In this document: piece by piece, positions 47,468 to 54,246 of the stretch | Layout of the letters: each line of letters begins with the position of its first letter | How positions within the stretch are numbered: the first letter of the stretch is position 1 | Source of the DNA: an uncultured Campylobacterales bacterium | Lineage (GTDB): Bacteria > Campylobacterota > Campylobacteria > Campylobacterales > Sulfurimonadaceae | DNA: 54,246 bases | Reading direction: 5' to 3' | Assembly: GCA_903892995.1 (NCBI GenBank) | Contig: CAITKP010000041.1 | Span: forward strand, 1 to 54,246 | Program-made: the position numbers and the translations under genes | The notes under the pieces: model-generated | What the model was told of the DNA's origin: nothing | The model's database searches: none | The model's input: the letters and a program-made list of their open reading frames with translations, nothing else

Positions 47468-48091
47468 ATGCCGCAGCTCGATCCTCTCATTTTTGTTGAT
47501 ATTCTGGGCATTATCGCTTTTACAATTAGTGGATTTCTGGTTGGTGCGAGAAATCATCTTGATATCTTAGGACTTATGATCGCCGCTTCACTTACTGCAT
47601 TGGGCGGTGGGATCGTACGAGATACAATCCTCAGTGTCACCCCGTTTGCTTTTAAAACACTCTATCCCGCAACTGCGCTTTTGATTGTTATCTTTTTATC
47701 ATTTGTCTTTAAAATACACAGATTTGACTCTTTAGAAAAACGGTGGCTATTTGTGATCAGCGACACCATCGGGCTTGTGGCATTTAGTATCACTGGCGCT
47801 CTTTTAGCTTTACATGGTGGGTATAACTTTTTTGGAGTGATAATCCTTAGTTTCATTACCGCGATGGGCGGAGGTGTGATACGAGATATCCTTATAAACC
47901 AAGTCCCTGCCATTCTTATCAGTGACTTTTACGGTTCCATCTCCGTCATCGTTTCTTTGCTTTTACTACTCTTGCATGTAAGCAATTTTTTAAATCAAAC
48001 AAGCATACTCTTGGTCGCAATTTTTTCTATCGCCCTTCGACTTTTAGCATATAAACGCAAATGGCATTTGCCAAAACTGACAAATTTTTAA
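47468..48091 (+). CDS. TRIC/UPF0126-type membrane channel protein
   Basis: This 207-residue protein has seven predicted membrane helices arranged as two homologous halves, each with the signature GGGxxRD (ALGGGIVRD and AMGGGVIRD). Bacterial homologues belong to the trimeric intracellular cation channel family, also annotated as YadS/UPF0126 or glycine transporters; the substrate is not certain. It directly follows the hexapeptide gene. It is the last chromosomal gene before the transposon region, so its 3' side is the apparent insertion point. Confidence 0.85.
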   Translation: MPQLDPLIFVDILGIIAFTISGFLVGARNHLDILGLMIAASLTALGGGIVRDTILSVTPFAFKTLYPATALLIVIFLSFVFKIHRFDSLEKRWLFVISDTIGLVAFSITGALLALHGGYNFFGVIILSFITAMGGGVIRDILINQVPAILISDFYGSISVIVSLLLLLLHVSNFLNQTSILLVAIFSIALRLLAYKRKWHLPKLTNF

Positions 48092-48269
48092 TGCAAGATA
48101 CATAAAATAACGTTTATACATATAAGTTACACTACTTTACAATTTAATCTATTTTCTAAAAATAAATGTTATTAAAAATACTAAATAAAGTGAATTTATT
48201 TAATTTTATAGTAATTAATGTTATTAAATTTGCATGAAAAATAATTATTTATTTTGATATAATTATTTT
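48092..48269. other. AT-rich gap, probable tnsA-side transposon end
   Basis: This 178-base stretch between the TRIC gene and tnsA is extremely AT-rich. It contains the word AATGTTATTAAA twice in direct orientation (48165-48176 and 48217-48228), 52 bases apart, each in a wider AT-rich match. Tn7-like elements place repeated TnsB sites next to tnsA, so these may be such sites, but they are only 12 bases long. The exact transposon boundary and any target duplication cannot be located from this side alone. Confidence 0.35.
48258..48263 (+). promoter_or_regulatory. -10 box TATAAT of tnsA, probable leaderless start
   Basis: TTTTGATATAATTATTTT is followed directly by the ATG at 48270, leaving six bases, so the expected transcription start falls on the start codon. 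There is no Shine-Dalgarno sequence before tnsA. Confidence 0.5.
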
Positions 48270-48917
48270 ATGCCAGTCAGAAAAATTAAAAAGAGCTACA
48301 TTTCTTGTGTTGGATATTTTAAAAGCTATAAGAACAATAAACAGTTAGCTTTTGAATCCATACTAGAAAGAGATTTCTTTACGCTGTTAGAGTTTGATAG
48401 AAACGTTGTTGAATATGAAGAACAGCCGTTGAAGCTCAAATATATGTTAAAAGCTAAAAATACAAGATATACCCCTGATGTATTGGTTATATACAAAGAC
48501 TACTCTAAAAAAATATTTGAAGTTAAATATCAAAGTGATATAGATTCAGATCCAGAGTTACAGCATAAGATATCTATTTTAAAAGAAGAGATTGCTCGAC
48601 AGATGTCAATTCCTTTTGACACATTTACAGATACACAAATAGATAAAATATATTTTAGAAACTGTGTTTTTCTTTATAAAAATGCTTTTATACCTAAGAA
48701 CGATGTTATAACCTCCAAAGTGCTGGATGGACTTAACGATCTTTCTGCTTCTATATCTATTAAATCATTTTTGGAACTTTTATCAAAAAACCAAACTGAA
48801 CAATTACGGATTCTTCCTTATCTTTGGCATGAAATATTTAAAAACACCTCTCTTGTTGATATGCAACAACCGCTGACCATGTCCACTCCAATACAAATAA
48901 GGGGGCATAGTGAGTAA
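48270..48917 (+). CDS. tnsA: TnsA-like transposon endonuclease
   Basis: This 215-residue protein of the TnsA restriction-endonuclease-like family makes the 5' cuts that let Tn7-type elements move by cut-and-paste. The active-site pattern is E33 (FESILERDF), D70 (RYTPDVLV) and the E84-x-K86 pair (FEVKY), followed by a helical C-terminal domain that would contact TnsB/TnsC. Its presence separates this element from TnsA-less types such as Tn5053 or V-K CAST elements. It overlaps tnsB by eight bases. Confidence 0.87.
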   Translation: MPVRKIKKSYISCVGYFKSYKNNKQLAFESILERDFFTLLEFDRNVVEYEEQPLKLKYMLKAKNTRYTPDVLVIYKDYSKKIFEVKYQSDIDSDPELQHKISILKEEIARQMSIPFDTFTDTQIDKIYFRNCVFLYKNAFIPKNDVITSKVLDGLNDLSASISIKSFLELLSKNQTEQLRILPYLWHEIFKNTSLVDMQQPLTMSTPIQIRGHSE

Positions 48918-50766
48918 GCTAAATCTTTCAATAGGTTCAAAAGTTTTTTACAATAACACAGAATATATAATTGTCAGAACAGTTGATTTTCATACACTCT
49001 CAATTGCTCCAGCAGACAATAAAAATGAAATAATCAATGTTGACATAAAAGATCTCTCTTCCAAACGCAAAGAAGAAAAAGTGCAGCTTGATACCTATAG
49101 CGATGCAGAGTGGGATGAAGCTAAAAAGAAATATGAAGCCATTAAAGACCTTGTTTTTAGACAAAAAAGCAGAGAGGAAGTTGAGGAAGTCGCATCAAAG
49201 TGCAATGTTGCAGCGATGACAATATATCGCTGGATAAAAACTTATGAACAGTCAGAAAAAATCAGCTCACTTATCTCAAGCAAGCATAAACGCGGTAAGA
49301 AAGGAAGCCGTCTCGACTCTGTACCAGATAAAGTCATAGAAGATGTTATTGAAGAGCTCTATCTGACCAAACAAAGAATCGGTTTTCCAAAAATATACGA
49401 AACAATCAAAGCCGAATGCAAAAAGCTCAACATCATTCCTCCGCATGAAAATACCGTCCGAAACAGAATAAAAGCGATCGATCCTAAGTTTGCCATGAAA
49501 AAACGGTTTAGTGCAAAAAAGGCAAATGAGAAATATGGCAATTTCGAGGGAGAGTACCCTGAAGGAAACTTTCCTCTTGAAGTTTACCAGATAGACCACA
49601 CACCGCTTGATATCATACTTGTAGATTCAATATCCAGAAAACCAATAGGCAGACCTTACCTAACACTTGCGCTTGACGTATACTCCAGAATGATCGCAGG
49701 GTTTTACTTGTCCTTGCAGGCACCGGGATATTTCAGTGTCAGCCAATGCCTCTATAATGCTTTTTTGCCAAAAGATGACTTTCTCAAAGAACATGGTGTC
49801 AAAGGCGAATGGGAAATCTACGGAATTCCGTCCAAATATGCGGTTGACAACGGCGCCGATCTAATTGGTCTTGATATGCAAAGAGTATGTGACGAATTTA
49901 GTATGACAATGGTAAGACGACCTGTAGGAAGACCGCAGTTTGGAGCTCACGTCGAACGTGTTTTTGGAACGATCAACAAAGAAGTACATAATCTCCCGGG
50001 GAGTACATTTTCCAGTGTTGCTGAAAAAGCCGAATACGATTCCATAAAAAATGCCGCTTTTACCCTTGAAGATATGACACAGTGGCTTACGGAATTTATA
50101 GTCAACAAGTATCACAATCGCATCCATCACGGTATAGGAATGACTCCAAAACAAAAATACCGTTTGGGAGTCTTTGGAGATGATGAACATCCGGGTAGTG
50201 GTTTACCGCCGATCATAGAGGATAAAGAGTCCATTAAAATAGCTCTCTTACCGACATTTTACAGAACCGTGCAAAAAGACGGTATGACCCTTGACGGTAT
50301 CACTTACTATTCGGATGTTCTGAGAACTTGGATAAACAGAGAAGATGAGCAAGGAAACAAACTGAAATTCAAAATAAAAAGAGATCCTCTCAGTATCCAA
50401 AAACTTTACTTCTTTGATCCAGAGCTCAAAGAGTATTTTGAACTACACTATAGGAAACTTCATGCTCCGGATATGACAATTTGGGATCTGTATGCCTCAA
50501 AAAGATATCTAAAAGAACATAGTATCAAAGATACAACCGAAGATGATCTTTTTGACGCTTACGAACGACTCTCACATATAGAACAACAGGCAAAAGAGAA
50601 AACAGCCAAACATAAAATGCGAAAAAGCAAAATGCCAAAAATGAGCAATATCAAATCAAAAAGTAAAACCGAACCTCCTGCTTCAAAAGAAAAAGAGACT
50701 AAACAAGCCGATGATGTTTTTAATGACTTATTTGACAATATCGAAACCTTTAATATCAAAGAGTAA
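48910..50766 (+). CDS. tnsB: TnsB-like DDE transposase
   Basis: This 618-residue transposase is responsible for 3' strand cutting and joining. It has N-terminal helix-turn-helix segments (EEVASKCNVAAMTIYRWIK at about 92-110), an RNase H-fold core with the DD(35)E triad D229 (YQIDHTPLD), D313 (YAVDNGAD) and E349 (GAHVERVFGT), a beta-barrel domain, and a Lys-rich C-terminal tail that would bind TnsC. The start is GTG behind AAGGGGG, overlapping tnsA. The triad is intact, so it is probably active. Confidence 0.93.
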   Translation: MSKLNLSIGSKVFYNNTEYIIVRTVDFHTLSIAPADNKNEIINVDIKDLSSKRKEEKVQLDTYSDAEWDEAKKKYEAIKDLVFRQKSREEVEEVASKCNVAAMTIYRWIKTYEQSEKISSLISSKHKRGKKGSRLDSVPDKVIEDVIEELYLTKQRIGFPKIYETIKAECKKLNIIPPHENTVRNRIKAIDPKFAMKKRFSAKKANEKYGNFEGEYPEGNFPLEVYQIDHTPLDIILVDSISRKPIGRPYLTLALDVYSRMIAGFYLSLQAPGYFSVSQCLYNAFLPKDDFLKEHGVKGEWEIYGIPSKYAVDNGADLIGLDMQRVCDEFSMTMVRRPVGRPQFGAHVERVFGTINKEVHNLPGSTFSSVAEKAEYDSIKNAAFTLEDMTQWLTEFIVNKYHNRIHHGIGMTPKQKYRLGVFGDDEHPGSGLPPIIEDKESIKIALLPTFYRTVQKDGMTLDGITYYSDVLRTWINREDEQGNKLKFKIKRDPLSIQKLYFFDPELKEYFELHYRKLHAPDMTIWDLYASKRYLKEHSIKDTTEDDLFDAYERLSHIEQQAKEKTAKHKMRKSKMPKMSNIKSKSKTEPPASKEKETKQADDVFNDLFDNIETFNIKE

Positions 50767-50769
50767 TGC

Positions 50770-51710
50770 ATGCATATTGAACTGACAGAAGAAACCCTAA
50801 AGATGCTTAATAGCTCTGACGAAGAGAGAATCAAATACATCAATCAGGAATACTGGATCGACTACCCTATCGCTCAAAATATTTTGAAAAAGATGGAAGA
50901 TATCTATAATTTCGGTTACGGAAAAACGAGATATATAAGTATATTGTTGGTTGGCGGAAGCAACAACGGTAAGACTTCCCTTCTCAAACAGTTTTTAGAG
51001 AAACATCCACCATATGACTATAACATTGAAGGCGAACAGCCTGAGTGGATCACAGATGAGTTCTTTGACAAATACACCGGCATCGGCAGACCTGTGCTTT
51101 ATGCCATATCACCAACTGAACCGAGTGAAAGCAGGCTCTACAGTATTATCTTAGAGCAATTGAATATACCCTATAAAACGCGGGACTCTTTGGATGTAAA
51201 AGCAAAACTAGTTGAGTATTACCTCAGAGCGCTCAATGTCAGAGTTCTTATCATCGATGAGATCCACAATATTCTTAATGGGTCGCCTGCCAGACAGAAA
51301 CAGATCATGAGTGCTATAAGAGATTTAAGCAGTAAGTTGACAATGCCTGTCATATTAGCAGGTGTCAAAGAGGCTTTGCGTGCAGTTAATACAGAAGATC
51401 AGATCAGCAGTAGATATCGACCTGAATATCTTACCAAATGGAAGATGGATAAAGACTATATCAGTCTGTTGGCTACTACAATCAGCAAACTACCACTAAA
51501 AAACAATCCACTATTCTCAATACGAACGATGCACAAGAGATTCTTGAGCTATGCAACGGATATATTGGTGAGATCGTAAATCTTATTATAGCAGCTGCTG
51601 TTTATGCTATACAAACAGGCAGTGAAAGAATTACTATAAAAGAGATCAAAGAATGTGGGTTTAACACCCTGCAAAATATCCATAAGACTATGAATTTAAA
51701 AGACATATGA
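50770..51710 (+). CDS. tnsC: TnsC/TniB-like AAA+ ATPase, reading frame shifted near the C-terminus
   Basis: This is the target-selection ATPase that links TniQ to TnsB. Walker A is GGSNNGKTS (62-70) and Walker B VLIIDEIHN (about 159-167). The initial frame stops at 51577-51579 after 269 codons, with a family-unlike tail. From 51504 the -1 frame continues QSTILNTNDAQEILELCNG and YIGEIVNLIIAAAVYAI, the normal end of this family, to TGA at 51708-51710, overlapping the tniQ ATG (ATGA). The switch falls at A AAA AAC (51498-51504) in phase with the first frame. Product by -1 shift: 313 residues. Programmed frameshifting, a one-base loss or a sequence error are all possible. Confidence 0.85.
51498..51504 (+). 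promoter_or_regulatory. A AAA AAC slippery heptamer in tnsC
   Basis: The zero-frame codons are CTA AAA AAC, giving the X XXY YYZ arrangement required for a tandem -1 slip. The frame change needed to restore the TnsC C-terminus is exactly -1 at this point. A small hairpin (CAAGA/TCTTG, 51533-51545) lies about 29 bases downstream, further than usual stimulators. Confidence 0.5.
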
Positions 51711-52840
51711 TAAAAAAGATAAAGTTTCCTGAGCTAAAAAATGAAAACTTTACGATCGTGCCAATCCCTTTTGCGGATGAATTACTTTCATCATGGATTG
51801 TCCGCACTGCATATGCACACAAGACACATCCTCATACTTTCGTCAACCAGTATCTTAATTACAGACCATACTCTTTTTTCCTAACAGAAAGCGATATCAC
51901 CTTAGATAAAACTATGATCAAAATCATCGAAGAAAAAAGTCATCATAAAATCGATGTTCATTCTCTGATGCTAACAACGTACTCCGGATTTCTTCAGGAA
52001 AATATCTATGAGAACAACCCGACTATATTTTTTACCCATCAAAAATACTGTTCAGTCTGTTTGCGTGAAGACAAAGTACCTTATTTTAGAAAAACGTGGC
52101 GAGTAGTTTTTTACAACATTTGTCATACACATCAATGCCGTCTATATGAGTATTGTCCTTCTTGTAAAACAAATCTTGATATCTCCAAGATGTATGAGAA
52201 CGAACTACCTTACACACACTGTCATCACTGTGGTTTTGAACTAAAAAAAGGAAGAAAACTGCCAATCCATAAAAAGTATATTTCAAGTCTTGAATATCAA
52301 AATAAGATTTTTAGAGTTATACACGATGGGTACATTCAGCTTGGAGAAACTTCTATCTACTCATTTTTATTTTTTGAAATTTTCTCAAAACTTTCCAAGC
52401 TCATTCTACTCAATAAAAAACATGTTTTTATCAATAAACATCCCTTGTTTTCTCTCATCAAAAATGCAAAACAACAAAATGTTAACCACCCTATATTCAA
52501 AAAAATAGATGCAAAAGCACAATCGGGACTTTTTGGATTGATAATCTACATCTTCGATGATTTTCCACATAATTTAGAAAGTTATATACTTCAAAACAAG
52601 CTTACATACTACAACATGACCACGAAAGTGCCATATATACCGTTTTGGTATGAAACAACTGTGAATGCAATTTCTCCCCAATATCTGCCACACAGTATGA
52701 TGGTTACAAAAGAAGAAGTTGAATATGCAAAACAATATCTGATGTCTATTGGAAAAGCCATCAACAAAGTCAATCTGACACTTTTATTTGGATGTAACTT
52801 TTACAGTAAAGACAATAATTTGCACTTCTATTTAAACTAA
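51707..52840 (+). CDS. tniQ: TniQ/TnsD-family target-selector protein
   Basis: This 377-residue protein has the TniQ opening PIPFADELLSSWIVRTA and a zinc-binding region with C115/C118 (CSVC), C139-H140/H142-C144, C150/C153 (CPSC) and C172/C175 (CHHC). In Tn7 the equivalent TnsD reads the attachment site; in CRISPR-associated elements a shorter TniQ docks on Cascade. This size is intermediate and no Cascade genes are present here, so direct DNA recognition by its C-terminal part is more likely. The ATG overlaps the -1 frame stop of tnsC. It lacks any neighbouring tnsE. Confidence 0.88.
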   Translation: MIKKIKFPELKNENFTIVPIPFADELLSSWIVRTAYAHKTHPHTFVNQYLNYRPYSFFLTESDITLDKTMIKIIEEKSHHKIDVHSLMLTTYSGFLQENIYENNPTIFFTHQKYCSVCLREDKVPYFRKTWRVVFYNICHTHQCRLYEYCPSCKTNLDISKMYENELPYTHCHHCGFELKKGRKLPIHKKYISSLEYQNKIFRVIHDGYIQLGETSIYSFLFFEIFSKLSKLILLNKKHVFINKHPLFSLIKNAKQQNVNHPIFKKIDAKAQSGLFGLIIYIFDDFPHNLESYILQNKLTYYNMTTKVPYIPFWYETTVNAISPQYLPHSMMVTKEEVEYAKQYLMSIGKAINKVNLTLLFGCNFYSKDNNLHFYLN

Positions 52841-53029
52841 CGTCCGTATACACCGAAAATATATTCGGGCAGTCAGCCGATATTTACCATAGAACCCATC
52901 ACAGGTCATCTCAAATCAAATTACAAATTATCAAGAAACAATCTTAAAAGATTTATCAAATAAAGATCAACCTGCTGCTAACAGTAACTACTTGGAATCC
53001 AAAAAAGTGGATGAATATCTCCTTTTTTA
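52841..53029 (+). pseudogene. Decayed C-terminal remnant of an IS5-type transposase
   Basis: Directly after the tniQ stop, an open stretch reads IEPITGHLKSNYKLSRNNLK, which matches the C-terminal IEPIIGHLK motif of IS5-group DDE transposases. A further fragment in another frame reads NLLLTVTTWNPKKWMN, the typical ending of the same family. At least one stop and frame changes separate them, so it is dead. Only the tail of the gene remains; its 5' part is absent or was replaced. Confidence 0.7.
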
Positions 53030-53431
53030 GGTCAAGCACGGCTTCTCTTGTTGGTAGCACACAGATAATAAAAAGAAAGAAGCATTTGTGAAGCTATTGA
53101 CTTTGAAAATCTCTATGGAATTCTCAAGATATAGTATAGCTTAGTTTTTCAGAAGCGACTATATAAGTTTGAAGTTAAATTTTCAGACAAATTTATTGAA
53201 GATATAAGGGCGGCTTAAGTTTCAAAACGTAACTTTTTTTTGAAGGCAGAATGGACAAGGCTCTTAAGCTATGATACAATCTCATCAACTATCGGAGACT
53301 GACACGAAATTCTGAACACTCTCAAAACCGATTGACAAAAATCTCTCTTAGTGCTGTTAATGTTCAATTCTTTAATATTTTGTTCTCACAAATTGTTTTT
53401 TGAATGGGACATATTTTAAGTGTAAAAGATC
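53030..53431. other. Non-coding stretch with no identifiable gene
   Basis: This roughly 400-base stretch has stop codons in all frames at short intervals. Neither repeats of CRISPR size nor a tRNA or hairpin terminator is evident. It contains TTTTTTTTGAAGG and TTGTTTTTTGAATGG tracts and probably consists of insertion-sequence debris continuing from the IS5-type remnant. It separates the transposition operon from the oppositely oriented hsdS fragment. Confidence 0.6.
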
Positions 53432-54114
53432 TTAAATTTTATATTTACTAATTAAGTTTTCAATATTCTTTTTTATGGTTGCTAAAATTTCATATTCTTG
53501 ATAAATTTTATTTTGCATATCAATATCTATGTTCTCATTCATGTCTACTGGAATATCAACTTCTATATTAGCCATTTGTTCTTCATAAAGCATACCTTGT
53601 GCATCTTTTGCTACTACATGATTATAAACTATTGGCTGTAGCTTTTGTTTTGCCCATGCCAAATTCAACTCTAGCTTTGGAATTAAGACTCCGCAGTGGT
53701 CATTAGGATAAAATTCATAATCTCTATGAAACATAGTCCCACATTTAGCTCCGTCTTTAGTCCATGTTAAACACTCTTTATCAACATAAACCTTTTTGGA
53801 GTTCTTTTCTATATTTGTAAGCCATTTTCTATCCCCATACCAAGCTATACCTTCATTTCTTGTTTGAGAAGTAACGGCTGGAAAATCGCCTGAATTATTG
53901 TATATGTCGTTTTGTGTAATTCTAAGACCTGAAGTAATGTCAAATAGTTCTTTCATTAAAAAGCTTTTACTTTTTGAAATAATTTTTTTACTAATTTGAG
54001 TATTTACTTTTTCTAAAACACTATTTAACAAATTAAGCTTATTCATTCTTATATTGAATTCTTTAACTAGTTTGTCTTGTAAAGTTATATCAATAATATC
54101 AACTTCAATATTAT
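53432..54114 (-). pseudogene. N-terminally truncated type I restriction specificity subunit (HsdS) fragment
   Basis: The about 227 residues contain a coiled-coil spacer (KLVKEFNIRMNKLNLLNSVL), a target-recognition domain (MKELFDITSGLRITQNDIY, then YDGDRKW-like AWYGDRKWLTN and NDHCGVLIPKL) and a closing conserved helix (IYQEYEILATIKKNIENLI). A full HsdS has two such halves; the first recognition domain is missing. The frame opens at ATG 54127, but its first four codons come from the adjacent repeat element, so the gene is broken at about 54114. No hsdM or hsdR is visible. Confidence 0.75.
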
Positions 54115-54246
54115 TGTCCGCGCGCATCCAACTTGGCCACCCCGCGCATTTGCATTTGGCCAGCTAACGCATTATTACTTGGCCACCTCACGCATCCGTT
54201 ATTTGGCCGGCTGATAGATAAAAATGCGCGGCTAAGTTACCATTAA
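54115..54246 (+). mobile_element. Probable insertion-sequence end with TTGGCC repeat array (IS21-like), runs off the window
   Basis: TTGGCC occurs at 54133, 54156, 54179 and 54203, a 23-24 base period. Each copy continues to a (G/A)CGCAT word, for example TTGGCCACCCCGCGCAT and TTGGCCACCTCACGCAT. A truncated first copy TGTCCGCGCGCAT starts at 54115, with TG as the possible terminal dinucleotide. IS21-family elements begin with TG and carry multiple internal repeats of this kind before istA. No transposase is visible because the window ends, so the family is an inference. The GC-rich composition differs sharply from the surroundings. Confidence 0.5.

Follow-up and report, generated by a model that had tools for sequence, protein, structure and literature searches.

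Tn7-like transposons carry tnsA, tnsB, a TniB-type tnsC, and tniQ. In a type I CAST, binding of TnsB by TnsC involves the C-terminal helical bundle and the C-terminal loop of TnsC (PMC13228271). The interrupted tnsC described here, which is the gene for target selection, resembles two known arrangements. In the IS3 and IS1 transposases and in Escherichia coli dnaX, an in-phase X_XXY_YYZ heptamer lies between two overlapping frames, and the same is seen in this gene. Pseudogenes that arise by a 1-nt homopolymer deletion share with it the loss of a single A from a run of seven, the presence of intact orthologues, and linked decay of the element, and here no difference is apparent. The window, that is, the whole stretch of 54,246 nt that was analysed, comes from an uncultured Campylobacterales bacterium. 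Its tnsC very probably represents a 1-nt homopolymer deletion in a decaying, crippled Tn7-like element and not a control switch; as a kind of event, this is ordinary.

Tn7-like element of the window

The window copy has tnsA, tnsB, tnsC, and tniQ in operon order, as judged from Pfam matches and from homology to the operon of genome G094, and shares with Tn7-like transposons this gene order, the Pfam families, and the ATGA junction of tnsC and tniQ. Apart from tnsC, the following features are recognized:

48141..48228, plus strand: two 36-nt repeats (AATGTTATTAAA motif), which resemble repeats upstream of tnsA in relatives
48270..48917, plus strand: tnsA (215 aa), intact (Pfam Tn7_TnsA-like_N and TnsA_C; 77% identity to G094 TnsA, single frame)
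48910..50766, plus strand: tnsB (618 aa), intact (Mu-transpos_C; 85% identity to G094 TnsB along all 618 aa, single frame)
51707..52840, plus strand: tniQ (377 aa), intact, with the ATGA overlap (Pfam TniQ, 7.7e-21; 80% identical to G094)
53432..54127, minus strand: hsdS-like cargo gene, cut by an IS at the contig end (Pfam Methylase_S, 9.7e-17)
54115..54246, no strand assigned: IS21-family copy with terminal repeats, at the contig end (five matches in the genome)

The two 36-nt repeats are probably remnants of TnsB sites. The terminal repeats of the IS21-family copy show a TTGGCCA motif at a spacing of 23 to 24 bp, and an IstA-like ORF adjoins one of its five genome matches. The segment between tniQ and the hsdS-like gene (52841-53431) contains no ORF of 80 aa and several stops in the frame read; it is probably a degraded cargo gene.

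On the left side, a chromosomal gene ends at 48091 and tnsA follows within 180 bp. The terminal TGTCATTTACAA, which in three relatives lies 2 to 3.4 kb upstream of tnsA (about 2 kb in two besides G094), is absent from the interval between them (48092-48269), and a search across the genome with the same pattern found no left terminus. A perfect right end is present on contig C7 (G000:C7:1750-1773), adjoining the stop codon of argJ. A cargo protein near this right end is 78% identical to the right-end cargo protein in G094, and this similarity, together with gene order, indicates that the window and the C7 right end are probably linked; the assembly breaks at the IS. In genome G006, the TRIC-like gene that precedes the element in the window is adjacent to argJ, with no element in between, an arrangement that fits one insertion between these two genes.

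In the intact relative in G094, 5-bp target duplications and TGT..ACA ends are seen. In contrast, the window copy does not show two inverted ends (TGT..ACA) with a 5-bp target duplication and is classified as a remnant. It differs from Tn7-like transposons in having a frameshifted tnsC, an IS in its cargo, and no left terminus. The last two features, the IS and the lost terminus, indicate that the element is decaying.

Mobile relatives and the argJ site

G094 contains two 17.6-kb copies of the element that are 99.99% identical and retain both ends (TGTCATTTACAA...). They are flanked by 5-bp duplications, GTATG for copy A and TTTAT for copy B, the latter at the argJ stop codon. The near identity of these copies and their duplications indicate that the family, with an intact tnsC, moved recently. 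Copy A (L039 62-445; L041, 18036-18971 of the joined stretch) is found inside a gene with an flhF-like start; its position and GTATG duplication show that the family also inserts away from argJ. Directly outside copy B, a second right end (GTAAATGACA) is found at about 380-405 of L040, so that argJ in this genome seems to carry two members of the family in tandem.

In three genomes (the C7 site above, L040 with G094 copy B, and L131 in G002), the right end lies directly against the stop codon of argJ, which suggests that the 3' end of argJ serves as the attachment site of this Tn7-like family. argJ goes unmentioned in the ten papers that ranked best for Tn7-like attachment sites. In G002 (L131 10000-14300), about 4.2 kb separates the TRIC-like gene from argJ and includes a right end of the family; neither a left end nor tnsC was found in this interval, which is another remnant at the same site.

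Reading frames of tnsC and its relatives

The tnsC gene is divided between two frames:

50770..51579, plus strand: zero frame of tnsC, truncated, 269 aa, with residues 245-269 being out-of-frame sequence
51498..51503, plus strand: A6 run, the putative deletion site; the closest relatives have A7 here, one A more (DNA alignment and codon table)
51498..51504, plus strand: A_AAA_AAC heptamer in X_XXY_YYZ phase, a probable by-product of the deletion
51498..51710, plus strand: C-terminal part of tnsC, separated from the rest and lying in the -1 frame, with the C-terminus of the family and TGA at 51708-51710

The zero frame starts at 50770, matches the Pfam domain TniB (6.6e-53, residues 20-225), passes through codons CTA (51496-51498), AAA (51499-51501), and AAC (51502-51504), and stops at TAA (51577-51579). 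Its tail lacks the family C-terminus and has no equivalent among the relatives. From 51453 onward the -1 frame is open, and over residues 244-313 it encodes a sequence with 90% identity to the closest relative; the TGA overlaps the tniQ start (51707) in the sequence ATGA. The initial annotation had described just this arrangement (a premature zero-frame end with a family-unlike tail, an in-phase A AAA AAC, a normal TnsC end in the -1 frame, and an ATGA junction), and each of these observations stands, the junction being present in intact relatives as well.

Relatives of TnsC were found in 22 of the 200 related genomes searched, and a contig scan added others; plasmid matches, all less than 60% identical, were left out of the junction comparison, and a search of viral contigs found no TnsC relative. 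The nearest relatives are encoded in G094 (two copies, 94%), G082 (93%), the Sulfurimonas MAG BM502 (92%), and the Helicobacteraceae MAG L029 (84%). In these closest homologues (84 to 94% protein identity), tnsC is a single open frame of 313 codons with the same ATGA overlap. The codons at the site are CTA AAA AAA CAA in both G094 copies and BM502, CTC AAA AAG CAA in G082, and TTA AAA GAA CAG in L029. About 25 further relatives, with identity down to 24%, keep the frame open across the junction, and when the C-terminal 70 residues were used as a separate query, they fell within a long frame (263 to 324 codons) in every genome except that of the window. When the tns genes are aligned with those of the homologues at the DNA level, the window sequence shows one gap only, of 1 nt, at the A run. 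The gene has the hallmarks of a pseudogene, namely, intact close orthologues and a single frame-breaking indel. A deletion from A7 to A6, which the initial annotation had held in reserve as its second reading, is supported by the intact homologues and the 1-nt gap.

Real deletion or sequencing error

Consensus sequences often contain errors in homopolymer length. A genome with A7 and an intact tnsC, from which the consensus dropped one A, would fit the intact frames of the other tns operon genes and the still largely conserved C-terminal part of tnsC; this reading is unlikely. In a control, 328 kb of the window's assembly (the window included) were compared with the ORFs in 1.2 Mb of G006, a genome of the same genus, and none of the 93 orthologues (90 kb; 39 of the 93 in the window) had a broken frame, which puts the upper 95% limit at about 3 breaks per 90 kb. 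The same script did flag tnsC in the comparison with G094, which served as the positive control. Other in-frame A7 runs of this genome are read as A7, including each of the 23 in-phase A_AAA_AAA_C sites among the sampled ORFs. The lack of other frame breaks in the control makes a real deletion more likely than a base-calling error.

Amino-acid changes private to the window also speak against an error, as they cluster after the break (4 of 68 residues, versus 1 of 242 before it; Fisher p 0.009, with small numbers and a test picked after the data had been viewed). This clustering suggests relaxed constraint. Over its whole divergence, the C-terminal part has evolved mostly under purifying selection (pN/pS about 0.09), so that the break must be young, and the deletion is presumably recent.

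Predicted effect on TnsC

Loss of one A from the run of seven in CTA AAA AAA CAA would break the frame after residue 244 of 313, placing the last fifth of tnsC out of frame and leaving the protein without the helical C-terminal portion of the AAA+ ATPase. In an alignment with ShTnsC, the missing residues correspond to its C-terminal helical part (the GYIG... region). The short TnsC is accordingly predicted to be inactive or a poor partner, and the break would be one step in the decay of a Tn7-like element inserted at the 3' end of argJ.

The deletion might also be real and partly compensated by corrective frameshifting, in which slippage of the ribosome or of RNA polymerase on A6 restores traces of full-length TnsC, so that TnsC activity in trans would be reduced and not abolished. 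Such correction is known at indels in runs, and shifting at A_AAA_AAC occurs in some systems (PMC5009743); the C-terminal part is also mostly conserved still. This reading is nonetheless improbable, as the element has no left end and little left to mobilise, and the clustered private changes suggest that constraint on the C-terminal part has been relaxed. More doubtful again, and close to speculation, is the idea that slippage on A6 yields a small, limiting amount of full-length TnsC along with a short form able to poison TnsC oligomers, so that the deletion would by accident dim transposition in this lineage.

Slippery heptamer

The initial annotation had proposed programmed -1 ribosomal frameshifting at A_AAA_AAC, with two forms of TnsC, of which the short one has 269 aa and the full one 313 aa. 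In its favour, two frames overlap at a correctly phased heptamer, and reading in the -1 frame yields the normal C-terminus. However, the phase is explained by the deletion: removal of one A from CTA AAA AAA CAA leaves CTA AAA AAC AA, from which the heptamer and its exact phase follow automatically. The in-phase A_AAA_AAC is a necessary product of such a deletion and would provide no independent evidence of design or of an evolved slippery site. As a sequence motif, the heptamer is not beyond chance: the window's genome is A+T-rich, 278 of its ORFs (274 kb) contain A_AAA_AAC in phase 53 times and A_AAA_AAA in phase 135 times, and 251 of these ORFs have one or more in-phase X_XXY_YYZ.

In contrast to IS3, IS1, and dnaX, the tnsC heptamer is conserved in no relative, its second frame corresponds to the usual end of a gene that is undivided in other genomes, and it has AAC where efficient bacterial sites have AAG. 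In E. coli, shifting occurs much less readily at A_AAA_AAC than at A_AAA_AAG (2016, PMC5009743). No stimulator was found either: RNA structure 3' of the heptamer is not significant (folding z of -1.1 and -0.3), and inspection by eye of AATCAGCAAACTACCACT, which lies upstream, revealed no Shine-Dalgarno-like element. The proposed comparison of homologues for a conserved A AAA AAC and both endings showed conservation of neither the heptamer nor the break. The frame arrangement was seen in the window alone, and the codons at the site differ across the family. Close homologues have an in-frame AAA AAA CAA, which had been named in advance as speaking against a programmed shift, or AAA AAG CAA or AAA GAA CAG, and with their single open frame they require no shift. 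A literature search for TnsC with programmed frameshifting returned unrelated matches only. With the break absent from every relative, near or far, and with a zero-frame tail that none of them shares, the programmed frameshift is not supported by the sequence comparisons and is scarcely credible.

Implications

Had the shift been programmed, Tn7-like transposition would have gained a new level of control; the relatives show otherwise, and the result removes a false lead on recoding. When a single genome shows an in-phase slippery heptamer beside a frame break, this says little for recoding, since an in-frame A AAA AAA C that loses one A invariably turns into such a heptamer. Of modest use is the description of a Campylobacterota Tn7-like family that appears to target the 3' end of argJ and includes a recently mobile member.
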